Part shown: positions 21,742 through 43,147 of the stretch, piece after piece
Numbering within the stretch: the first letter of the stretch is position 1
Layout: the number at the start of each line of letters is the position of its first letter
Assembly (NCBI GenBank): GCA_015063195.1
Contig: SUSX01000004.1
Span: forward strand, 1-54,983
Length of the DNA stretch: 54,983 nucleotides
Reading direction: 5' to 3'
Origin: Thermoplasmata archaeon
Lineage (GTDB): Archaea; Thermoplasmatota; Thermoplasmata; Methanomassiliicoccales; Methanomethylophilaceae
The notes under the pieces: model-generated
Databases searched by the model: none
Told to the model about the DNA's origin: nothing
Seen by the model: the letters and a program-made list of their open reading frames with translations, nothing else
Position numbers and translations under genes: made by a program

Positions 21742-22560
21742 ATGAGATCCATAATGGGTTGCAGGAGTTCGTTGGGTTTTGATGCCCCGAAGGTAATGGG
21801 CATACTCAACGCAACTCCTGATTCTTTTTCAGACGGCGGAAAGTACGATAAATTAGAGTCAGCCGTAGCACATGCATTCTCAATGGAGGATGACGGTGCG
21901 GACATCATAGATATAGGCGCAGAATCCACCCGTCCGGGATTTGTTCCGATATCAGCAAGTGAGGAATTGAACAGATTGATCCCTGTTCTGGAAAACATCG
22001 TCCCTAACATTTCTCTTCCTATATCTGTGGACACATCCAAAACTGCAGTGGCGGAAGCTGCAATAGATGCAGGTGCGGACATAATTAATGACGTAAATGC
22101 AGGAAGAGATTCCGGAATGTTGGAACTGATCTCTTCTTCCGGAGTGTATTTAGTTATAATGCATTCCAATGGTTCCCCGGATAATCAGAGTCCTTTCGAA
22201 GGCGATCTTTTTGAGAACATGATTTCATTCTTCGATGAAAGGATAGATGCTGCATTAGACGCTGGAATCCGTAAGGACAGGATAATTATCGATCCCGGGA
22301 TTGGGTTTGGAAAGTCTCCTGAGCAAAATATGGAGATAGTTAACAATCCAATGTTCTACGGCAGGGAGTTCCCTGTTCTGATAGGTGCATCCAGGAAGAG
22401 ATTCCTTTCAGTAATGTATCCGGGTGAGGACAGGGATGTTGCTACAATTACGGCATCCGTGAGTTCTGTTATGAAAGGTGCCGACATAGTGAGGGTGCAT
22501 AACGTGAAAGATATGGTTTCCGCCCTCAGAGGATTATCCTGTAAACAAGGAAAAGTATGA
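21742..22560 (+). CDS. folP: Dihydropteroate synthase
   Basis: A 272-residue DHPS-fold protein. VMGILNATPDSFSDGGKYD is the pterin/PABA loop, IDIGAESTRPGFVPIS the second loop, and IIIDPGIGFGKSPEQN and LIGASRKRFLSVMY the Lys/Arg-containing active-site segments. In methanogens such proteins act in folate or methanopterin-type pterin synthesis; which pterin is not shown by sequence. The ATG at 21742 begins one base after the CCG-protein stop. An earlier ATG at 21724 inside that gene is possible. Its last 35 bases overlap the convergent zinc-finger gene. Confidence 0.9.
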   Translation: MRSIMGCRSSLGFDAPKVMGILNATPDSFSDGGKYDKLESAVAHAFSMEDDGADIIDIGAESTRPGFVPISASEELNRLIPVLENIVPNISLPISVDTSKTAVAEAAIDAGADIINDVNAGRDSGMLELISSSGVYLVIMHSNGSPDNQSPFEGDLFENMISFFDERIDAALDAGIRKDRIIIDPGIGFGKSPEQNMEIVNNPMFYGREFPVLIGASRKRFLSVMYPGEDRDVATITASVSSVMKGADIVRVHNVKDMVSALRGLSCKQGKV

Positions 22561-22720
22561 TTATTCCGATGGCTCCGTAGAACAGCAGATCCCTGAGGGA
22601 TTCACTTTTCTGTTCCTTTTCATAATCCGATTTACAGGAATTATCACAGAAATTTTCTCCGTAAGGCAGAGGGTCTCCGCAGTGGAGGCAGTGTGAATGT
22701 TCCGGCAGCTTCAAAGCCAT
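22526..22720 (-). CDS. Small zinc-finger, tail-anchored membrane protein (DUF2116-type)
   Basis: A 64-residue protein. HCLHCGDPLPYGENFCDNSCKSDY has four Cys in two pairs (CxxC and CxxxC) that would bind zinc, followed by a charged linker and a single C-terminal membrane helix (LLFYGAIGIIILFLVYRIIL). Such DUF2116 proteins are common in euryarchaea and have no assigned function. It is divergent from the E1-Ubl-E2-JAMM operon with 125 bases between, so the two promoters share that region. Confidence 0.72.
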   Translation of the reverse strand: MALKLPEHSHCLHCGDPLPYGENFCDNSCKSDYEKEQKSESLRDLLFYGAIGIIILFLVYRIIL

Positions 22721-22845: not shown

Positions 22846-23619
22846 ATGACGGACCTTTCCGCCGGCTATCAGGATAAGGACAGATATGACCGACAGCGTC
22901 GTATTGATTGGATTGATATGGATGGAATATTCCAGTCTAAGATCCTTGTTGCAGGAGCCGGTGCGTTAGGTAATGAAGTGGTAAAGAATCTGGTACTGTC
23001 CGGTTTCAGGCATATCGATGTGGTCGATATGGATGAGATCGTTCTTTCGAATCTCAACAGATGTCTGTTCTTCCGGGATTCAGATGTGAAGAAGATTCCT
23101 AAGGCGGTGGCTGTAGCCAATAAGGCATCCGAACTATCCCCGGATGCATATGTATATCCTATCGTGGGGAAGGTTCAGGACATCCAGACTTGGGATTATG
23201 ATATTGTCATAGGTTGTTTAGACAATATACTGGCACGTATGCATGTGAACTCCCACGCCTGCTATCATGGCATACCTTACATCGACGGTGCCACCGACGG
23301 TATGAGAGGTAAGGTCAATGCAGTCCTTCCCGGAGGCCCGTGTCTTCAGTGCACTATGAACAAATCCCACATCAGGGAGATGGAAAAGAGATTCTCCTGT
23401 ACCGGTGATGCAGTAATGTTCGTTCCGCATCTTGCTTCGGATGTTACAACAACATCCGTAGTTGCTGCGATACAGGTCAGGGAAGCAATGAAAATAGCTT
23501 CCCGCAGATATGATCTGTGTATCAGAAACGTATGCTATTATGACGGAACGGCCGGAGATATGTTCATATTGGAAGTTACCACAGATCCGAACTGTCCCAA
23601 CCATGAGGTGCAGAAATGA
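22846..23619 (+). CDS. E1-like ubiquitin-activating enzyme (ThiF/UBA3-like)
   Basis: A 257-residue adenylation-domain protein. GAGALG (residues 37-42) is the ATP loop, VVDMDEIVLSNLNR (59-72) gives the ATP/Mg contacts, and GCLDN (123-127) the second Asp. PCLQC (165-169) starts a structural zinc site that appears to end with CPNH (250-253), a His where MoeB/UBA3 proteins usually have Cys. RFSCTGDAVMFVP resembles the eukaryotic E1 active-site segment (FPxCTxxxxP), making Cys185 the likely thioester Cys. It lacks a ubiquitin-fold domain, so it is a minimal E1. Its TGA overlaps the Ubl ATG. A MoeB/ThiF role in sulfur transfer is the alternative, but the E2 and JAMM neighbours argue against it. Confidence 0.88.
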   Translation: MTDLSAGYQDKDRYDRQRRIDWIDMDGIFQSKILVAGAGALGNEVVKNLVLSGFRHIDVVDMDEIVLSNLNRCLFFRDSDVKKIPKAVAVANKASELSPDAYVYPIVGKVQDIQTWDYDIVIGCLDNILARMHVNSHACYHGIPYIDGATDGMRGKVNAVLPGGPCLQCTMNKSHIREMEKRFSCTGDAVMFVPHLASDVTTTSVVAAIQVREAMKIASRRYDLCIRNVCYYDGTAGDMFILEVTTDPNCPNHEVQK

Positions 23620-23858
23620 CAATAGTTATCGAAGTTAGAAATGTTGCCAGCGGAGCGGTATTGAAGATGGAACTGGATCCTGCAGACAAGATATACGATA
23701 TCATTGAAAGTGCTGCAGAATACTGGAACAAGGATGCGGGAGCATACGTTCTGAAGAAAGGTAAGAAACTACTCCACGGTTCGGAGACTGTTGCAGAGGC
23801 CAATCTGGTCACAAATGATGTTGTAGAGATGATTCCCGATCCGGAAGGTGGAATTTAA
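23616..23858 (+). CDS. Ubiquitin-like modifier protein with C-terminal Gly-Gly-Ile
   Basis: An 80-residue beta-grasp protein. AVLKMELDPADKIYDIIE aligns with the second strand and helix of ubiquitin (TITLEVEPSDTIENVK), and LKKGKKLLHGSETVAEANL aligns with LIFAGKQLEDGRTLSDYNI. The tail is MIPDPEGGI: Gly78-Gly79 followed by a single Ile, so one residue must be removed to expose the diglycine. The tail is acidic and proline-containing rather than the arginine-rich tail of ubiquitin. It has seven Lys (17, 25, 39, 47, 48, 50, 51) that could take chains. It overlaps the E1 gene by four bases and the E2 gene by one. Confidence 0.87.
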   Translation: MTIVIEVRNVASGAVLKMELDPADKIYDIIESAAEYWNKDAGAYVLKKGKKLLHGSETVAEANLVTNDVVEMIPDPEGGI

Positions 23859-24337
23859 TGGGGTTGCCGAAACCTGTTCTTCTGAGAAGAATATCTAAGG
23901 AACTTCAGGATTGTACAAGATATCTTGGATCAGACTTCTCTTTCGATGTCGAAAGAGCGGAATTTCCGATAAAGATCGATATGCACATGAGCAATGTCGT
24001 AGGGTATGACAGGCCTGATCATATAATCACAGAACATCAGTTCACCATAATACTGACCGAGGAATACGGTTTCAAGAAACCCGAAGTCAGATGGAGGTCC
24101 GAGATATTCCATCCGAATATATTGGGTCCTAAGGACGGAGGGTATGTGTGTCTGAAAATGCTGAACGATTGGTCTTTCGAAACCAGTCTGCTGTCTTTCC
24201 TGAAGAGTGTGGAATCTTTAGTCATGGAACCGAATCCGTCAAATCCGTTCGGAACAGATTCGTGTATGGCTGCTGCGGATTATTTCTCCAATAATAAATC
24301 AAAATTCAATGCTAAGATTGAATACGGGGTGAAATGA
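23858..24337 (+). CDS. E2-like ubiquitin-conjugating enzyme
   Basis: A 159-residue UBC-fold protein close to the length of a minimal eukaryotic E2 (about 150). After an N-terminal helix (LLRRISKELQDC), FHPNILGPKDGG carries the complete HPN motif (85-87). Cys98 in YVCLKML is the catalytic Cys, 11 residues after the Asn, as in classical E2s. The conserved Trp105 and a VMEPNPSNPF segment (123-131, like LLxEPNPxDPL in eukaryotes) follow, then the C-terminal AAADYF helix. This is one of the least diverged E2s one could expect in a euryarchaeon. It is coupled to the Ubl gene (TAATG) and overlaps the JAMM gene (ATGA). Confidence 0.9.
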   Translation: MGLPKPVLLRRISKELQDCTRYLGSDFSFDVERAEFPIKIDMHMSNVVGYDRPDHIITEHQFTIILTEEYGFKKPEVRWRSEIFHPNILGPKDGGYVCLKMLNDWSFETSLLSFLKSVESLVMEPNPSNPFGTDSCMAAADYFSNNKSKFNAKIEYGVK

Positions 24338-24849
24338 TGTCTCCGAGAGTTATGGAATCGGAGAGGAGAGAGATACCGTACAGGCGGAGGGCTGTGAAGT
24401 CCGCCTCATTCTTTGTTCATGAAAATATTCTCTCCTATATCGCAGATCATGCTGATGTAGGTTATCTCGATGAGAAGGAGGTTATGGGTCTCCTGATAGG
24501 TAATCTTCTCAGAGATGACGACGGCGAATATGCAGTTGTGACCAAAGTTGTAACTTCCGAGCTGATTGCAGACAGAGTCAGCGTCAAATTCGATCAGAAT
24601 TCGATGGAAGCATTGTTCGATGCAGTGGATGAGATGGAATTCGATGAGCAGATAGTTGGGTGGTACCATTCACATCTGGGATACGGATGCTACATGTCTG
24701 AGAAGGATATCAAAACTCAGGACACAATATTCGGAGGGGAGACCGGTTTCGCATTGGTGATAGATCCTGTGTTGCAGGAGATATCTGTATTCGATTCAAA
24801 GAAGGGTGCACCTGAAAAGGTGACGATGATTGTAATCGAATCGGATTAG
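24334..24849 (+). CDS. JAMM/MPN+ metalloprotease, Rpn11/CSN5-like deubiquitinase
   Basis: A 171-residue JAMM protein. Glu49 in EKEVMGLLIG and VGWYHSHLGYGCYMSEKD (H112, H114, S122, D125) complete the E...HxHx7Sx2D zinc site. The GWYHSH-x-GYGC-x2-S-x2-DIxTQ pattern is that of eukaryotic Rpn11/CSN5, with Leu where those usually have Pro after the second His. It probably trims the Ile from the Ubl precursor and/or removes conjugates. The start is ATG at 24334 within ATGATG. It ends in TAG and its last bases overlap the convergent hxlB gene. Confidence 0.9.
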   Translation: MMSPRVMESERREIPYRRRAVKSASFFVHENILSYIADHADVGYLDEKEVMGLLIGNLLRDDDGEYAVVTKVVTSELIADRVSVKFDQNSMEALFDAVDEMEFDEQIVGWYHSHLGYGCYMSEKDIKTQDTIFGGETGFALVIDPVLQEISVFDSKKGAPEKVTMIVIESD

Positions 24850-30250: not shown

Positions 30251-31528
30251 TCACAGGATGCCTGTGGTGAACAAGATCACAGGAACTATCAGACAGCCTG
30301 TAAGATGGATCCTGTTCGTATCCGTGATTACGGGGATAATGCCGATTGCCGTACACAGAAGTAACAGTATTATTCCCCAATATCCTGTCATCAAATATGT
30401 CAGTGCAACAGTGAATGCAATTATCATCAGATTCATTCTGTTAATGTCTATTGCAGAGATTACCTTACTGAATATCTGTCCTGCACTTATCGTTACAAAA
30501 TAGGCAAATACGGATGTTATTGCCAAAGTAATCATCACTATCGTGAACAATTCGCTTCCGGGCGTTATCGATGCATTTTCGATTATGTTGCTCACTGCAG
30601 TCATGGTTCCCGATCTTTCACTTCCGGATATGCAGAACGTGATAAAAGCGAACATGGTTGATGCAGTGCCTATCGAAGATGTCATGGAAATGAATCCTTT
30701 CGAATCCTCTTCTCCAAAAATGTAACCTGCTATCGTTGCACCTGATGTTGATGTAATGCCGGGAAACCAACCTGTAAGGCTTCCGGTCAGTACGCCCTTT
30801 ATTCCTGGCAGTAAGCCCACAGGACGTCGAATCTCATCAGATTGTGGAGGAATGGAAGAACTGCCCTGAAACATGATTATAGCGGGCATACCGAAGAGTC
30901 CTGACAGTAAGGGAAGCATCAGTCCTGAATCAAATCCTAAAAATCCTATGGACGGAATCTTGCCGCTCATACTGATTATGCCGATCACTCCTGAAACTAT
31001 GATAAGTGCAGTGCCTATTACCCTGTTGCGTCCATCCTCTTTGATAATCATCAGTATCAATACCAACAGAAGTACTCCTACAGTGATACTGTCCATGTAT
31101 TCCCCTAGCCATGTGGACAGAAGATAATACATCGGTATTGCCAGGACAATTGATGTGAATGCCCCGACCAGGCTGCCAATGGCCGCCGATCTGACCGCAA
31201 TCATACCCTTCCCTTCAAAGAGCAGTCTGTGGGCTGGAAGAACATTCAGCGCCGAATCCGCATCCGGCAGTCCCATGAAAGTAGACGGAATGAAATCTAC
31301 GGCAGAATGCATGACCGCTGCAGACATTATACAGCAAACCATCATCGCCGGTACATAATCGATCGGAATGAAAGAAGACAGAGCGGAAGATATACTGTCC
31401 TGAAAAATGACAATCAGTGCAGCCAATGTATTGACGTGAATTCCCGGTATCAGTCCGGACACAATCCCGATAAGGGATCCGGCAATACACATGTACAGAA
31501 TTAACAGAATCAGATCAGGCTCCATCAC
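30251..31528 (-). CDS. TctA-like integral membrane protein (COG1784)
   Basis: A 425-residue protein with about 10-12 hydrophobic helices. GIVSGLIPGIHVNTLAAL near the N terminus and GSLTGWFPGITSTSGATIAG in the middle are the paired Pro-Gly loops shared with TctA subunits of tripartite tricarboxylate transporters. Archaeal COG1784 proteins stand alone, without the periplasmic binding or small membrane partner, as here. The substrate is unknown. Confidence 0.82.
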   Translation of the reverse strand: MMEPDLILLILYMCIAGSLIGIVSGLIPGIHVNTLAALIVIFQDSISSALSSFIPIDYVPAMMVCCIMSAAVMHSAVDFIPSTFMGLPDADSALNVLPAHRLLFEGKGMIAVRSAAIGSLVGAFTSIVLAIPMYYLLSTWLGEYMDSITVGVLLLVLILMIIKEDGRNRVIGTALIIVSGVIGIISMSGKIPSIGFLGFDSGLMLPLLSGLFGMPAIIMFQGSSSIPPQSDEIRRPVGLLPGIKGVLTGSLTGWFPGITSTSGATIAGYIFGEEDSKGFISMTSSIGTASTMFAFITFCISGSERSGTMTAVSNIIENASITPGSELFTIVMITLAITSVFAYFVTISAGQIFSKVISAIDINRMNLMIIAFTVALTYLMTGYWGIILLLLCTAIGIIPVITDTNRIHLTGCLIVPVILFTTGIL

Positions 31529-35424: not shown

Positions 35425-36198
35425 TCACCCGATGATCTTTCTGATTTCCTTGCCCTTCTCAACAGCGGCGTCGAGGCACTGACTGAGTTCATCCAAAGTG
35501 ATGGAACCCTGTCCGCCCTTCTGCATAGCTCTGAAGTTGCCGTTATCGTCGGTTGTGACGGTAAGGCGTGCAGAGGATATGTGCTCTTCGTCGAAATTTG
35601 GGTCAAGTATTAAAGTATTTCCTATTTTGCATGACGTGACAGAGATAGGGAGACATGTGATTGGCAGAGGTTTGTTCTCTCCCTTACCATATTGCTCTCC
35701 GGGAATGATTGCTGTCTTGAGCGCCATGACTGCTGCGAGGTTGGCTGCGTCGAAGAGATTTCCGTCGTAGTCGAGTGCATAGATGTCGATGAAACACATC
35801 CAGACTTCTTCGCCCTCGGTGATGCACAATGCATCGACGTCGACCATTCCTGATTCTCTGATTCCACGGTCTACGACACGTGCGAGTTCGATTGCGTCCT
35901 CTCCTGGGGGTCCGGACTCAAATGACTGGTGGGCCATAGGGATGAGTTCGGCACCGGTGGTGAGTACTCCTGAACGGGGGGTGTCCGGGAAAGGTGTACC
36001 GGGTATGATTTTAACTCCCGCAATAACCTCTGTGTTTCCGAGCTTGATCCTTGCGGATCCGTCTGCGGATTCGATACAGTCTGTTGTAATCTGTATCTCT
36101 CTGATGTCAGTGGGGGAACGTCCGTCAGTCCTGGTTCCTTTGTTGAGGAGGTTGATGATGTGATCCCTCTTGATTTCAGATATTACTTCATTACTCAT
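35425..36198 (-). CDS. rrp42: Exosome complex RNase PH-like subunit Rrp42
   Basis: A 257-residue RNase PH-fold protein. [17 protein letters not shown] begins the fold, and [16 protein letters not shown] and [20 protein letters not shown] are typical. Rrp42 is the non-catalytic partner of Rrp41 in the hexameric ring that degrades RNA 3' to 5'. The ATG at 36198 follows GGGAGGTGA; it overlaps the rrp41 end by eight bases. Confidence 0.94.
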
Positions 36199-36934
36199 TG
36201 GATTCACCTCCCTTCTGTACAGAGTAGCGCCTCTTGAGGGCGTCCTTCTGTATGTCGTATACTTCGTGACAGGCGTTGACTGCCATGGAGATGGCTTTGT
36301 CGAACTCCTCTCTTGTCATGTTTCCGTCCATCTGAAGGAGAACAATCTCGTCTGTGGAGGGAACAATGGCAATGGGTACATCTGCCTGTCCGTAGTTGTC
36401 TTCCTCTTTGTTGAGGTCGAGAAGAACATGTCCGTCCGCTTTTCCTGCAGCTATTGCAGGTACAATGTCCCTCATGGGGATTCCTGCATCTGCAAGTGCG
36501 ACGGATGCTGCTGTAAGTCCTGCACATCTTGTTCCGGCGTTTGCCTGGAGAATCTCAATGTAAACATCGATGGATGCACGGGGGTAGAGCTCTGTGAGAA
36601 CGACGTTCTCAAGTGCTTCTGCTGTGATTTTGGAAATCTCGATGGATCTCCTGTCTGTACCAGGCCTCTTACGGTCGCTGACTGAGAATGCCTGCATGTT
36701 GTACTTGCACTGCACGATTGCCTTTGTGGGGTTCTGAAGGTGTCTGGGGTGACACTCCCTGGGGCCGTATACTGCTGCAAGCACCTTGTTCTTTCCGATT
36801 TCTACATATGCTGATCCGTCGGCGTTTTTCAGTACGCCGGCCTCGATCTTGATTGGCCTGTGTTCGGTGGCGGTTCTGCCATCGATTCTCATGCCGTTAT
36901 CGTCAACTAATACCATATCAGTGTGTCCGCTCAT
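36191..36934 (-). CDS. rrp41: Exosome complex catalytic subunit Rrp41
   Basis: A 247-residue RNase PH-fold protein with [54 protein letters not shown] (phosphate/RNA-binding Arg residues) and [20 protein letters not shown] (catalytic Asp region). It is the phosphorolytic active subunit. The ATG at 36934 follows GAGGAGGAGTGA, within the end of rrp4. Confidence 0.95.
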
Positions 36935-36936
36935 GT

Positions 36937-37635
36937 TCACTCCTCCTCTTCGTCGTCCGGGAGGTTGCTTTCGATAAATGCTTTGATTTTTTCGGTAAGG
37001 TTGCTGGACTGGGCCTCTTCCTCTATGATCTTGATGGCGTCTGCCACGACCATTGCCCTCTCATCATTTCCGTCGATCCAGATCCTTCCGTTCTGTCCTA
37101 CGAAGATACGACAGTCTGAAAGGGTCTTAAGCATCTGAATCATGGATCCGCTCTTTCCGATGACTCTGGAGACTTTTGAATGTGCAATCTCCACGATGAG
37201 TCCGCCCTCGAGTCTTCTGAGTCCGGAATCGTTCATCGTGACCTGTATCTTCTTGCTTTCATCTACGGACAGAATCTTCAGCATCACAACGTTACCTATG
37301 TTGAGGTATCTTGATGTGTCACCGAATTCCACTTTCCAAGGTACTTCATTTACGTGAAGTGGTGCAGGATATGGTGCATTAATGTCAACCATCCAGTTGG
37401 ATGATCCGATGTCTACGATTGTACCGATGACAAGGTCTCCTGCACTGGGCATGTACTGTCCCCAGAGTGGGATGACGCTTACACCGAGCTGGGAGACATT
37501 CTTGACACCCAAAACTGCTGCGTACACCTTTCCGTCCCTAACGTATGCGTAGTCTCCTGCCTTCATACCGGAATCGTCGAGAAGGTCTCCGGGGAGTACA
37601 AGCTCACGCTTGGATTTGGTGTTTCTTCTTTCCAT
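36937..37635 (-). CDS. rrp4: Exosome RNA-binding subunit Rrp4
   Basis: A 232-residue cap protein. The N-terminal domain has [21 protein letters not shown], the S1 domain includes [21 protein letters not shown], and the KH domain carries [15 protein letters not shown], the GxxG RNA-binding loop. It guides RNA into the Rrp41/42 ring. It ends with an acidic DDEEEE tail. Confidence 0.95.
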
Positions 37636-37656: not shown

Positions 37657-38352
37657 TTATGATAGTGCCTTCACTTCTGCGGCACCCTTTGTTTTGTTGT
37701 TGAGTTTGGTTCTGACCTCGTCGATGAGTCCGGCAGGAATTTCGATAATTCCTATCCATGATCCGTCAGCCTGCCATTCCTCCTTCTCCACAAGTCCGAA
37801 GTGGATAAGGTCATCGTAGCATTTTCCGTAATCGTCCCCTTTCAGTTTCACAGCGATCTTTGTTTTCTCGAACTTAATCGGTATGATCGGTTTCAGTAGG
37901 CGCATTGCTTCTTCGACCTGTTTCTCCACAGGTTTGAAAGGATCGACACGGAACTTCGCCTCTTCAAGGGCGAGCTCGATTCTGAGGGGAGGATGGGGGA
38001 GCTTGTTCTGCGGGTTTATAGCATTGGCAGCGATGTATGTGATAATCTGCTGCCTTTTTGCCTGAAGCATTTCTTTACGTTGTTCGGCTGTTATCTGCAC
38101 TTCGCCTTTGGCGATAATTTTCTGTGCTATTTCCTTAACATCCGATGTGTCAAAAGCCTCTTTGATCTTGTCTTCCGCAGGACGTGTTCCCTTCCTGGCG
38201 TTGTTGAAGATGTCTTCAACCGCCATGTAATCCAGAAGGTCGACCTCTTTCCCGTTCTTGAGAAGGTTGATCACTGCGGGATCCAGCAGAACTTCGAATG
38301 TTTCGCCATGACTCTCAAGTCTGGCTACGATTGCATCGTCAAGATTGACCAT
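37657..38352 (-). CDS. SBDS-family ribosome maturation protein
   Basis: A 231-residue aSdo1/SBDS homologue. Its N-terminal FYSH domain has [22 protein letters not shown] and [17 protein letters not shown] central helical domain ([26 protein letters not shown]) and a C-terminal RNA-binding-like domain follow. It helps release aIF6 from the large subunit. In archaea it is regularly placed between PsmA and Rrp4, as here. Confidence 0.94.
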
Positions 38353-38358
38353 GTATCC

Positions 38359-39069
38359 TCAAAGTTTTGCGATATATCCGTTGAGTTCATCATCGGTAAG
38401 TCTTCTGAAAGGCTTTCCGAATTCGACGATACCGCATTCAACGGTCTGTGCATCCAATTTCTCTTCGATAGCAGCGGACAGAGCTCTGAGTCCGAGGTTG
38501 ACTGCCTCGTCCATGTTCATTCCGTCCTTGTATTCCTTTTCGAACATGTCCATGACGACAGGGCGTCCTGAACCGATGCTGCTTGCTTTGTATGCTACGA
38601 GTGCACCTGAGGGGTCTGTTTCGAACAGGTGGCATCCGAGATCGTCACATCCTGCAACGAGGAGTGCGGTACCGAACGGACGTGCTCCGCCGTACTGTGT
38701 GTAGTTCTGTTTGAGGTCGCAGACTCTCTTCACAAGTGACTCAACACCGATGTTTTCACCGTATGTAACCTTGTGTGACTGAGCAGCCTTTCTGGCCTCA
38801 TCTACGAGAACTCTAGCATCTGCTACGAGACCGGATGTTGCGCATCCGATGTATTTATCGATGTCATAGATTTTCTCGATGGACTTAGGTTCCACGAGTT
38901 TGCTCGAGACACGCTTGTCAACAATGAGTACTACTCCGTCGTTGAATTTGAGACCGATCGTAGTTGTTCCCTTTTTGACAGCTTCACGGGCATACTCTAC
39001 CTGGAAAAGCCTTCCGTCAGGGGAGAAAACAGTGATACCCCTGTCATAAGCCATTTGTCCTGGTTGCAT
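38359..39069 (-). CDS. psmA: 20S proteasome alpha subunit
   Basis: A 236-residue alpha subunit. MAYDRGITVFSPDGRLFQVEYA is the conserved N-terminal gate region, and VEPKSIEKIYDIDKYIGCATSGLVADARV contains the Lys pocket that binds HbYX tails of ATPases. There is no N-terminal Thr, so it is the structural ring subunit. The beta subunit and PAN are not in this window. Possible connection to the ubiquitin-like system is inferred only from co-occurrence in the window. Confidence 0.96.
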   Translation of the reverse strand: MQPGQMAYDRGITVFSPDGRLFQVEYAREAVKKGTTTIGLKFNDGVVLIVDKRVSSKLVEPKSIEKIYDIDKYIGCATSGLVADARVLVDEARKAAQSHKVTYGENIGVESLVKRVCDLKQNYTQYGGARPFGTALLVAGCDDLGCHLFETDPSGALVAYKASSIGSGRPVVMDMFEKEYKDGMNMDEAVNLGLRALSAAIEEKLDAQTVECGIVEFGKPFRRLTDDELNGYIAKL

Positions 39070-39116: not shown

Positions 39117-39422
39117 TTAACGCGCGTGGCGTATCCTAGTAGATTCCAGTGGCGGATATTTCCTACGGAGTGTGATGAGCGTACCCGAAGTAGAAACGGA
39201 CTTGGAAGTAGGGTCGGCATGCGACATCATGTCGATAACTTTCCTGACATCATTCGGGGCAGACCTCACTATGCACCATCCGGATGCACACTGTATGACC
39301 TTGAACTCCGTTCCTCCCGAGTAAGCAGAGAGTTTTCCTGCCAGAGTCTCTTTGGTAAATGTCTCGGACAGTGTGAACGCGACGTACCTGCGTCTGCCTC
39401 TCTTCGATTTTACAACCATCAT
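39117..39422 (-). CDS. rnp2: RNase P protein component 2 (Pop5)
   Basis: A 101-residue protein. GRRRYVAFTLSE at the N terminus and VSTSGTLITLRRK at the C terminus are the conserved Pop5 segments. The gene order Pop5-PsmA-SBDS-Rrp4 is standard in euryarchaea. The ATG pair at 39422/39419 lies about 25 bases from TTTATA (39443-39448), so a leaderless start there is preferred over a GTG ten codons upstream that lies in the promoter itself. Confidence 0.85.
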   Translation of the reverse strand: MMVVKSKRGRRRYVAFTLSETFTKETLAGKLSAYSGGTEFKVIQCASGWCIVRSAPNDVRKVIDMMSHADPTSKSVSTSGTLITLRRKYPPLESTRIRHAR

Positions 39423-39460
39423 CGGTCCAATCATGGTTTGTGTATAAACCACTTTTCAAA

Positions 39461-39790
39461 TCATTCGGAATCGAATTCCGAGAACTTCCTGTTGCAGTAG
39501 GGGCAGAATCCAGTAGGTTCCGCACAGCTTCTGTGAAAGATCTTTCCGCAAGGACATTTCGATACGGATTCATCACCAATGAGATCAAAACAGATGTCAC
39601 ATTTCATCTCGGCATCTTCCGAGGCTATGACTGTAGCTGGATTTGATGTTCTGTGATTAATCAGATGCTCGTTCTGATGTCTGAATCTGGCCACAAAATT
39701 CTTCATGCCGCCTATGATTTTTTCACGTACAAGTATCAGGGAAATGACGATGAAAATCAGACCCAGTACCATAGGCAGCTCCAGATTCAT
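39461..39790 (-). CDS. Membrane-anchored RING-like zinc-finger protein
   Basis: A 109-residue protein. Residues about 5-22 form an N-terminal membrane helix (LPMVLGLIFIVISLILV), followed by a basic stretch. The C-terminal zinc region is C64-x2-C67, C79-x-C81, H86-x2-C89, C96-x2-C99. This order (four Cys, His, three Cys) is that of RING-CH/RINGv-type fingers, with CDICFDL at the first pair as in many E3 ligases. Spacing between the fourth Cys and His is shorter than usual. It could be an E3-like partner of the E1/E2 system at 22.8-24.8 kb, or simply a binuclear zinc protein of other use. It sits just upstream of Pop5-PsmA on the same strand. Confidence 0.65.
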   Translation of the reverse strand: MNLELPMVLGLIFIVISLILVREKIIGGMKNFVARFRHQNEHLINHRTSNPATVIASEDAEMKCDICFDLIGDESVSKCPCGKIFHRSCAEPTGFCPYCNRKFSEFDSE

Positions 39791-40129: not shown

Positions 40130-43100
40130 TTGACTAAATCAGCATTGGTTATCGGTGGAGGAATCGCAGGTATCCAGGCTTCGTTGGATCTTGCCGACAG
40201 GGACATCCACGTCTACTTGGTAGAGAAAGACCCTACCATCGGTGGAAAGATGTGCCGTCTCGACAAGACATTCCCTACGAACGACTGTTCCGCTTGTATC
40301 CTCTCGCCTAAGATGGCAGATTGTGCAGGTCACCCCAACGTTACCGTTTTGTCCTATTCAGAGGTCATTAAGGTCGACGGAGAGGCAGGAGACTTCAAGG
40401 TTACCGTTAAGAAGAAGCCCAGGTACGTTAAGCTCAACGAGTGTACCGGATGCGGTGACTGTATCGCAAAGTGTCCTACAAAGAACATCCCCGACGAGTT
40501 CGAATACGGACTCACAACAAGGAAAGCAATCTACATCCCCCACGCACAGGCTGTTCCCAGGGTTGCACTTATCGACCCCAACTACTGCCGTAAGATCCTC
40601 AAGGACAAGTGTGGACTCTGTGAGACTGCTTGTAAGAAGGGAGCAATCAACTACAAAGATGTCGAGACAGAGGAAGTCATCGAAGTCGGTTCAATCATCG
40701 CCGCAACCGGATTCCAGCTTTGGGACGCAGGAATCGCCACAGAGTACGGCTACGGAAGGTACGACAACGTCGTTACATCCATGGAATTCGAGAGAATGAT
40801 GTGTGCATCCGGTCCTGACCACGGACACATCAAGTGCCCCTCCAACGGAGAAGCACCCGAGAGAATCGCATTCATCCAGTGCTGTGGATCAAGGTCCGAA
40901 AAGAAGGGCTGGAAGAAATACTGTTCATCAGTCTGCTGTACATATGCAACCAAGCAGGCAATGATCACAAAGGAACACGCAGACGTTCACGAGGATATCT
41001 TCTTCATGGACATCAGGTCCTACGGAAAGGAATTCGAAGCCTACATCAAGAGAGGAGAATCCCAGTACGGAATCAACATGCACAGGAGTGCACGTGTCTC
41101 CAACATCGAGGAAGACCCCGAGACAAAGAAGCTCACCGTCTTCTACACAGACAAGGACGGAAACCCCGTCAACGCACAGTACGACCTCGTCGTTCTCTCA
41201 ATCGGTCTCAACCCACCTGAGGGAGCAGAGGAACTCTCAAAGGTCCTCGGAGTCGAACTCAACGAGTACGGATTCTGTGAGACATCAGTCTTCAAGCCCT
41301 TGGAGACAACCAGGCCCGGTATCCTCGTTTCAGGAGCATTCTCCGCACCTAAGGATATCCCCACAACTGTCGCAGAGTCATCAGGAGCAGCAGCAAAGGC
41401 AGGTTCCTACATCGTAGATGAGAACTTCGAGCCTTGCGCACCCAAGGTCTATCCCCCAGAAAAGGATGTTTCCGGACAGGAACCCCGCATCGGAGTCTGG
41501 GTCTGTGAATGTGGTATCAACATCGGAGCAACAGTCGATGTTCCCGCAGTCGCAAAATACGCAGAGAATCTCCCCGGAGTCGTCTATTCAACATCCACAA
41601 TGTACGCATGTGCACAGGACACACTCCAGGCAATCTCACTCGCAATCAAAGAGCACGACCTCAACCGTGTCGTCGTTGCATCCTGTACACCCAGGACACA
41701 CGAGCCCCTCTTCAGGATTGCATGCCGTGAGGGAGGACTTAACCAGTACCTCTTCAACATGGCAAACATCCGTGACCAGTGTTCATGGATTCACATGCAC
41801 GAGCCTGAGGCAGCAACAAAGAAGGCAAAAGACCTCGTAAGGATGGCAATCGCAAAGGCAGCACTTCTCGAGCCTCTCGAGGGTTCAAAGATCCCTGTCA
41901 CCAACTCCGCAGCAGTTATCGGAGGAGGAATCACAGGTATGACCACCGCACTCGACATCGCAGCACAGGGATTCCCCGTACACCTTGTCGACAGGGCAGG
42001 ACAGCTCGGAGGTCAGGCACTCGCATTCAGGCACAAGGAAGACGGAGTCGACACACAGGAATTCGTCCAGGACCTTATCAAGAAAGTAGAGGCAAACAAA
42101 CTCATCACAGTTCACCTCAACGCAGAAGTCAAGGACCTCCCCGGATTCGTTGGAAACTTCAGGCTCCAGCTTAAAGACGGAACAGATGAGGCAGTCGGTG
42201 CAGTCATCCTCGCAGTAGGATCACCTGCATACGCACCTACAGAGTACAACTACGGAAAGGACGCAAAAGTCATGACCGCACTCGAGGCAGAGAATGCAAT
42301 CGCAGACGGCAAATTCAACGCAAAGAACGTTGCATTCATCCAGTGTGTCGGATCAAGGAACGAAAACGTCAGCTACTGTTCACGTGTCTGCTGTACAACT
42401 GCACTCAGGAACGCAATCCAGATCAAACTCGCAGATCCCACAACCAATGTCACAATCTTCCACAAGGACATCAGGACATACGGATTCCGCGAGGAGATGT
42501 ACAAGAAGGCATCCGAAGTCGGAGTTAAATTCCTCAGATACGCAGAGGACGCACCTCTCCCCGCATACGACGGAAACAACGTCACAGCATTCGACACAAT
42601 CCTCGGAGCAGACGTTTCAGTACCTGTCGACTGCGTCATCCTCTCCAACGGTATCACACCTGTCCGCGAAGAGAAGGAAGAGCTTGCAAAGATGCTCAAA
42701 GTCCCCATCAGCAAAGATGGATTCTACTTCGAAGCACACCAGAAGCTCAGGCCTGTTGATTTCGCAACAGAAGGAGTATACGTTGCAGGACTTGCACACT
42801 GGCCCAAACACATGGACGAGTGTATCGCACAGGGATCAGGAGCAGCTTCAAGAGCACTCACCATCATCTCCAAGCCCTTCCTCACATCAGAGGGTATCGT
42901 TGCATCAGTCAACGAGAACTACTGTGACGGATGCGGAGTTTGTGAAGGATGCTGTGAATACAAAGCAATCACAATCGAAGAAGTCGATGGCAAACTCAAG
43001 TCCAACGTCAACGCAGGACTTTGTAAGGGATGCGGATGCTGTGTTGCAGCATGTCCCTCTGGAGCAATGGAACAGAAAGGATTCAAGAACAACCAGATTC

Positions 43101-43147
43101 AGGCAGAGATTGATGCCTGTCTTGACTTCCCCGTAGGAGGAGAGTGA
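40130..43147 (+). CDS. hdrA: Heterodisulfide reductase subunit A, double-FAD fused form
   Basis: A 1005-residue flavo-iron-sulfur protein, against about 650 for ordinary HdrA. Residues 1-440 form one FAD domain (VIGGGIAGI at 7-15) with an inserted ferredoxin (CTGCGDCIAKCP at 105-116 and CGLCETAC at 161-168). Residues 453-590 are the HdrA N-terminal domain (VWVCECGINIG, VVASCTPRTHEP). A second FAD domain starts at VIGGGITGM (597-605), and two [4Fe-4S] motifs end the protein (932-942 and 965-976). HdrA splits electrons from hydrogen between ferredoxin and CoM-S-S-CoB. The start is TTG with a strong AAGGAGG. HdrB and HdrC are not adjacent. Confidence 0.93.
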   Translation: MTKSALVIGGGIAGIQASLDLADRDIHVYLVEKDPTIGGKMCRLDKTFPTNDCSACILSPKMADCAGHPNVTVLSYSEVIKVDGEAGDFKVTVKKKPRYVKLNECTGCGDCIAKCPTKNIPDEFEYGLTTRKAIYIPHAQAVPRVALIDPNYCRKILKDKCGLCETACKKGAINYKDVETEEVIEVGSIIAATGFQLWDAGIATEYGYGRYDNVVTSMEFERMMCASGPDHGHIKCPSNGEAPERIAFIQCCGSRSEKKGWKKYCSSVCCTYATKQAMITKEHADVHEDIFFMDIRSYGKEFEAYIKRGESQYGINMHRSARVSNIEEDPETKKLTVFYTDKDGNPVNAQYDLVVLSIGLNPPEGAEELSKVLGVELNEYGFCETSVFKPLETTRPGILVSGAFSAPKDIPTTVAESSGAAAKAGSYIVDENFEPCAPKVYPPEKDVSGQEPRIGVWVCECGINIGATVDVPAVAKYAENLPGVVYSTSTMYACAQDTLQAISLAIKEHDLNRVVVASCTPRTHEPLFRIACREGGLNQYLFNMANIRDQCSWIHMHEPEAATKKAKDLVRMAIAKAALLEPLEGSKIPVTNSAAVIGGGITGMTTALDIAAQGFPVHLVDRAGQLGGQALAFRHKEDGVDTQEFVQDLIKKVEANKLITVHLNAEVKDLPGFVGNFRLQLKDGTDEAVGAVILAVGSPAYAPTEYNYGKDAKVMTALEAENAIADGKFNAKNVAFIQCVGSRNENVSYCSRVCCTTALRNAIQIKLADPTTNVTIFHKDIRTYGFREEMYKKASEVGVKFLRYAEDAPLPAYDGNNVTAFDTILGADVSVPVDCVILSNGITPVREEKEELAKMLKVPISKDGFYFEAHQKLRPVDFATEGVYVAGLAHWPKHMDECIAQGSGAASRALTIISKPFLTSEGIVASVNENYCDGCGVCEGCCEYKAITIEEVDGKLKSNVNAGLCKGCGCCVAACPSGAMEQKGFKNNQIQAEIDACLDFPVGGE

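Follow-up and report, generated by a model that had tools for sequence, protein, structure and literature searches.

The 54,983-nucleotide stretch of DNA analysed here (the window) comes from a genome of 1.19 Mb, 85% complete, that groups with Methanomassiliicoccales, the relatives that carry names being Methanomethylophilaceae, Methanoplasma and Methanomassiliicoccales MAGs. It contains genes for an E1-like enzyme, a ubiquitin-like modifier (Ubl), an E2 and a JAB isopeptidase in a single operon without an E3 gene, and raises the question of whether the ligase is a small RING protein encoded elsewhere, at the head of a proteasome-exosome cluster. The first-pass annotation had put this protein forward as a plausible E3 about 15 kb from the conjugation operon; by our measurement the distance is 14.6 kb, and the E1 and E2 genes are present as it had stated.

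The conjugation operon and the RING locus

The genes of the operon are as follows.

22846..23619, plus strand: E1-like activating enzyme of ThiF/MoeB type, 257 aa (PF00899, 1.6e-45; NCBIfam ThiF, 2.2e-33, and UbaA-type, 1e-24)
23616..23858, plus strand: Ubl, predicted ubiquitin-fold modifier, 80 aa, tail PDPEGG-I (AlphaFold2, pLDDT 86.7, and Foldseek)
23858..24337, plus strand: E2 (UBC fold) with HPN motif and Cys (UQ_con, 1.8e-15; UBE2A, 1e-12; conservation)
24334..24849, plus strand: JAB/JAMM isopeptidase, HSH...SxxD (PF01398, 5.6e-17)

These genes overlap or abut in an operon-like manner (22846-24849), and folP flanks them both in the window and in genome G124. The nearest models of the E1 are ThiF, MoeB and UbaA, and in the E2 the loop-7 proline is replaced, with WSF instead of WSP. 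The Ubl matches weakly by sequence and its ubiquitin fold comes from the predicted structure, for which Foldseek gives 882 hits in the PDB at E<=1e-3, headed by ubiquitin, Ubls or designed variants, with Caldiarchaeum ubiquitin among the best 50. A ubiquitin-like system of E1, Ubl, E2 and JAB is really present in this genome. Just before the E1 gene, on the minus strand, lies a 64-aa open reading frame (22526-22720) with a CxxC...CxxxC motif and a membrane helix.

JAMM genes have been described in archaeal ubiquitin/E1/E2 operons, and E3-like RINGs have been named for Caldiarchaeum and Asgard archaea (Fuchs 2018, PMC6043591). The window resembles those operons in that E1, Ubl, E2 and JAB share one operon from which an E3 gene is absent, and differs from that account in having its candidate E3 encoded at another place, a separation seen in other genomes too. 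The locus of this candidate comprises the following features.

39461..39790, minus strand: candidate E3, membrane-anchored RING protein, 109 aa (open reading frame with ATG start; Pfam zf-RING_2, 8.3e-6; AlphaFold2 and Foldseek)
39728..39784, minus strand: its N-terminal transmembrane helix, about residues 3-21 (hydropathy, positive-inside charge pattern, AlphaFold2 helix 4-44)
39485..39604, minus strand: its RING domain, about residues 63-102 (alignments A1 and A2; profile against the PDB)
39117..39452, minus strand: Pop5-like RNase P component, the next gene downstream (orthologue L070; synteny)
38359..39069, minus strand: proteasome subunit alpha, PsmA (TIGR03633, 3.9e-104)
37657..38352, minus strand: SBDS (TIGR00291, 1.8e-85)
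36937..37635, minus strand: exosome Rrp4 (NF003181, 1.8e-77)
36191..36940, minus strand: exosome Rrp41 (TIGR02065, 1.8e-110)
35425..36207, minus strand: exosome Rrp42 (NF003282, 2.5e-93)
40130..43147, plus strand: HdrA-like protein, divergent neighbour and synteny anchor (domains; conserved position beside RING)

The position beside a proteasome operon holds, as the Pop5-like and proteasome alpha genes lie directly downstream and the RING reading frame stops 8 bases ahead of the Pop5 start; the identity of Pop5 is taken from the orthologue L070, which matches RNase P component 2 at 3.5e-7. The run Pop5-PsmA-SBDS-Rrp4-Rrp41-Rrp42 is referred to in PMC2695463, citing Koonin 2001, as the known archaeal exosome superoperon.

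Zinc ligands, fold and family of the RING protein

The eight ligands of the protein (C64, C67, C79, C81, H86, C89, C96 and C99) stand in C4HC3 order with the spacing C-x2-C-x11-C-x-C-x4-H-x2-C-x6-C-x2-C, an order and spacing that fit a RING. Hydropathy is highest (KD19, 2.73) in the segment starting at residue 3 and is followed by a charge of +3; because this charge comes after the hydrophobic helix, the RING is predicted to be cytosolic. The reading frame, hydropathy and alignments thus bear out the earlier description of eight ligands in C4HC3 order behind an N-terminal membrane helix. Among 45 homologues C81 is the one ligand that varies, at a conservation of at least 90%, and in alignment A1 all eight are invariant; the family f5 has seven. 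In the f5 copies that we read (L063-L065, L226-L231), ligand 4 is replaced by S, T or A.

Several comparisons point to a predicted cross-brace treble-clef fold. The best Pfam match is zf-RING_2, at 1.5e-6 for the domain alone and 8.3e-6 for the whole protein, scoring 28.8 bits for the isolated domain, over the cut-off of 27.3, and 26.4, just under it, for the whole protein. A single-sequence search of the PDB finds the RINGs of Arkadia and RNF165 at 1e-4, and the 26-sequence family profile finds RNF165 (5.6e-7), Arkadia (1.9e-6) and AMFR (1e-5); an order-level profile, which includes the window sequence, finds the protein in the window's genome at E=8e-21. Over the RING the AlphaFold2 model, made from 45 homologues, reaches pLDDT 94-96. 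In Foldseek searches of the PDB its best 50 matches all seem to be E3 structures of RING or U-box type (probability 0.89-1.00), reaching 1.00 for RING E3s with an rmsd of 2.0-2.6 for many, while for so short a domain no match falls below E=0.001; the closest structures are RINGs of the RNF165, TRIM21 and TRAF6 types. The model thus resembles RING E3s and not two separate zinc ribbons, the two outcomes that the first-pass annotation had set against each other. Pfam, the family profile against PDB E3s and the predicted structure together support a RING fold.

The label RING-CH, which the first-pass annotation had also attached to the protein, does not stand as family membership. MARCH/RING-CH ligases share with the window protein the C4HC3 order and membrane anchoring, and on these two grounds it might be a true MARCH-type ligase or have come from a eukaryote by gene transfer; but PF12906 (RINGv) gives no match in the protein at E<=10, the spacings differ (C-x4-H and C6-x6-C7, as against C-x7-H and a longer C6-C7 loop), the closest structures are of other RING classes, and the gene occupies one syntenic place order-wide. 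The number and position of membrane helices in MARCH/RING-CH ligases are also different. We regard such an origin as highly improbable. NCBIfam holds no family for the protein by our search. The best matches in sequence and fold are eukaryotic RING-H2 E3s (RNF165, Arkadia, gp78/AMFR and synoviolin), of which gp78 and synoviolin are also membrane ligases, although RING-H2 E3s are large proteins with C3H2C3 ligands and a longer, Trp-containing C6-C7 loop.

The surfaces expected to face E2 are conserved in part. In alignment A1 the first zinc loop, C-x-I-C, has a hydrophobic I, L or M in 26/26 sequences and the proline of CPxC is present in 26/26; there is no Trp in the C6-C7 loop of these RING sequences and no basic linchpin after the last Cys, where the residue is mostly G, E or N. 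As the RING is without both Trp and linchpin, it may activate E2~Ubl only weakly or in another way. The nearest precedent is srfp of Caldiarchaeum subterraneum, a small RING encoded in an E1/E2/RING operon for which E3 activity was shown (Hennell James 2017, PMC5654768), and in which the Trp (Csub W58), the linchpin (Csub R69) and an Ile equivalent to the C-x-I-C position matter, the Ile being needed (PMC5654768). The two systems are alike in having an archaeal E1-like and E2-like enzyme, ubiquitin, JAMM and a small RING with an E2-facing Ile, and the extra Cys (C3B) and two-residue offset of C3 and H4 in srfp (PMC5654768) resemble the CxC-x4-H of the window RING. Compared by description, however, srfp lies in the ubiquitin operon, is assigned C3H2C3 and has both Trp and the Arg linchpin, whereas the window RING is unlinked, C4HC3, membrane-anchored and without either residue, and heads a proteasome-exosome cluster.

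Orthologues within the order are about 160-270 aa long, with a membrane helix in most, then the RING and 2-8 more CxxC motifs that we read as putative zinc ribbons. The window copy has 10 residues after the RING, as against at least 68 in all other copies read, and in this assembly is short by nature, a feature that the first-pass annotation does not mention. The C-terminal zinc ribbons of the other orthologues read are lost from it (39461-39790).

These features bear on a different role, in which the protein works with E2 without being a ligase, as a membrane anchor or recruiter: E2, Ubl or conjugates would be kept at the membrane or in the vicinity of the proteasome, and E2 would transfer Ubl unaided. 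The missing linchpin Arg and RING Trp would fit this role, as would a very small protein with a membrane helix whose relatives have zinc ribbons with a possible role in binding substrate or Ubl, and the fact that f5 lost one ligand and still kept the gene. However, the RING fold and its E2-facing hydrophobic positions are conserved, and its zinc sites, which a pure anchor would not need, are kept order-wide. We consider this role unlikely, and favor the reading of the protein as an E3.

Distribution of the RING gene and of E2

Among 147 Methanomassiliicoccales genomes, RING orthologues occur in 93 (E<=1e-3) and E2 in 97; 91 genomes have both, 48 neither, two RING only and six E2 only. In five of the six E2-only genomes (G041, G043, G113, G002 and G118) the normally adjacent PsmA is also missing, and in the other (G144) PsmA lies 65 bases from the contig end; the two RING-only genomes (G068 and G122) are without folP, the usual flank of the E2 operon, which is present in 12/12 E2-less genomes checked. 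In all eight exceptions the gene that normally lies beside the missing one is itself absent or marks where the contig breaks off, which points to assembly gaps. A profile search for missed RINGs recovered none.

The raw Fisher test for co-occurrence of RING and E2 (p = 1.9e-29) ignores phylogeny, and we therefore used independent contrasts on a tree of 67 genomes built from PsmA, SBDS, Rrp4, Rrp41, Rrp42 and HdrA, for which we chose genomes with the locus assembled and took presence labels from the full searches. On this tree there are seven RING changes and eight E2 changes, the extra one being G122, and E2 changes with RING in 6/6 supported independent contrasts (sign test, p = 0.031), with independent co-losses numbering only about 6-7. 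Over the same contrasts the control genes of the window give 0.1/6 (YqaJ) and 2/6 (TctA). RING is kept or lost together with E2 across the order, and within it RING is absent from every E2-less genome whose locus we found assembled, so that the link to E2 is more than one of position; this is the outcome of the co-occurrence check that the first-pass annotation had proposed. The TctA-family transporter (window 30254-31528) is absent from four E2-less, RING-less f5 genomes and present in E2-less g7 and g10. As TctA is also missing from these four genomes, a general loss of genes may contribute to the f5 share of the signal.

The loci themselves are informative. Wherever RING is present in the loci read it adjoins hdrA, divergently in nearly all, and if the contig is long enough Pop5 follows downstream in the same orientation. 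Eighteen E2-less genomes whose locus is assembled, namely nine from genus g10, four from g7, one from g5 and four from family f5, retain hdrA together with the Pop5-PsmA-SBDS-exosome run and lack RING alone.

RING also parts company with the other components of the system. Two genomes (G034 and G040) keep relatives of E1 and JAB, and in two more (G039 and G042) E1 and JAB persist beside a Ubl that has no GG; all four are without E2 and RING, and the latter two have the same empty site between hdrA and Pop5. Conversely, seven g7 genomes and G067 combine a JAB without HxH with a retained E2, and every one of them whose RING locus is assembled has RING. Since E1 and JAB remnants occur without RING, and E2 with an HxH-less JAB keeps it, RING follows E2 and not E1 or JAB, which should be the behaviour of an E2 partner.

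Two side observations concern the same operons. In L247-L254 (G037, G045, G038, G041, G046, G047, G043 and G067) the JAB lacks HxH...SxxD and the Ubl, where read, has no residue after GG; the processing enzyme and the tail in need of processing are lost together. In G073 and G076 of genus g10 (L284 and L286) a GG-less Ubl-like and a JAB-like reading frame lie next to folP, with E1, E2 and RING gone, and these may be repurposed remnants.

A further explanation makes the RING-like domain a zinc module with a structural role in a membrane protein associated with the proteasome, exosome or RNase P, unrelated to Ubl, which vanishes with E2 in streamlined lineages. Its lead position in the Pop5-PsmA-SBDS-exosome cluster, the loss of TctA from the four E2-less f5 genomes and the RING-like domains of other architectures in E2-less Thermoplasmata would accord with this, but the remaining cluster is intact where RING is absent, control genes do not track, and genomes with other Ubl-operon genes and no E2 are also without RING. 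We think this explanation quite improbable, and keep to a ligase partner of E2.

Those other architectures emerge from a 400-genome sample of the class Thermoplasmata in which, outside the order, a RING-like match is found in 55/56 E2-containing genomes and also in 77 E2-less ones. We therefore rejected class-wide co-occurrence of the domain as support, as at least some of the matches in E2-less genomes are in proteins of about 1500 aa with a different architecture; the domain alone is not diagnostic, and because it is used elsewhere we confine the claim to the orthologues within Methanomassiliicoccales. Among the proteins read from outside the order are a soluble RING-plus-ribbon type, the proteins of about 1500 aa with a C-terminal RING-like domain and one multi-membrane protein. 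Those of about 1500 aa (L161-L165, L167 and L178, some partial) include several with a VALKI/F-type tail and occur also in the E2-less family f27.

A candidate membrane-tethered ligase

Taken with the fold prediction, the co-loss with E2 strongly supports the original proposal of a membrane-anchored RING that is a plausible, proteasome-linked E3 of the E1/E2 system. From sequence and modelled structure we consider it probable that the protein is a RING-type E3, or an obligate E3-like partner of E2, of the E1-Ubl-E2-JAB system, tethered at the cytoplasmic face of the membrane, and it is likely to be the missing ligase of this archaeal ubiquitin-like system. Points that weigh against this reading are the missing Trp and linchpin, the distance of the gene from the conjugation operon, the replaced ligand 4 in f5, the replaced loop-7 proline of the E2, the RING-like domains of E2-less Thermoplasmata and the small number of independent co-losses. 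We infer a pathway in which E1 would activate the GG tail of Ubl and E2 would carry Ubl as a thioester, the RING would use its first zinc loop (C-x-I-C) and CP-x-C loop to bind E2~Ubl and would direct Ubl to membrane or membrane-proximal substrates, and the conjugation products may feed the proteasome, this last step being suggested because the RING gene heads the Pop5-proteasome-exosome cluster.

A broader reading, which we offer tentatively and would put slightly short of an even chance, is that methanogens have a membrane-based route like that of ubiquitin and the proteasome: an order-wide E1-Ubl-E2-RING cascade that takes its membrane-anchored candidate E3 from the proteasome-exosome cluster, would be the archaeal counterpart of ER-associated or inner-membrane protein quality control, and gains or loses RING and E2 as a single functional unit. 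In a literature search that was incomplete and does not prove priority, we found no report on a ubiquitin-like E2/RING system in Methanomassiliicoccales or Thermoplasmatota.

Descriptions of archaeal E1/E2/RING cascades come from Caldiarchaeum and Asgard archaea, organisms that are difficult to cultivate. If our reading is correct, a complete E1-Ubl-E2-RING-JAB set together with a 20S proteasome would be widespread in Methanomassiliicoccales, gut methanogens included, and its E3 would have been identified by co-loss and not by operon. Whether an archaeal E3 marks proteins for the proteasome, and whether membrane protein quality control is an old use of RING ligases, could then be tested in methanogens closer to cultivation. 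The lineages without E2 and RING but with relatives of Ubl and JAB are natural knock-outs.
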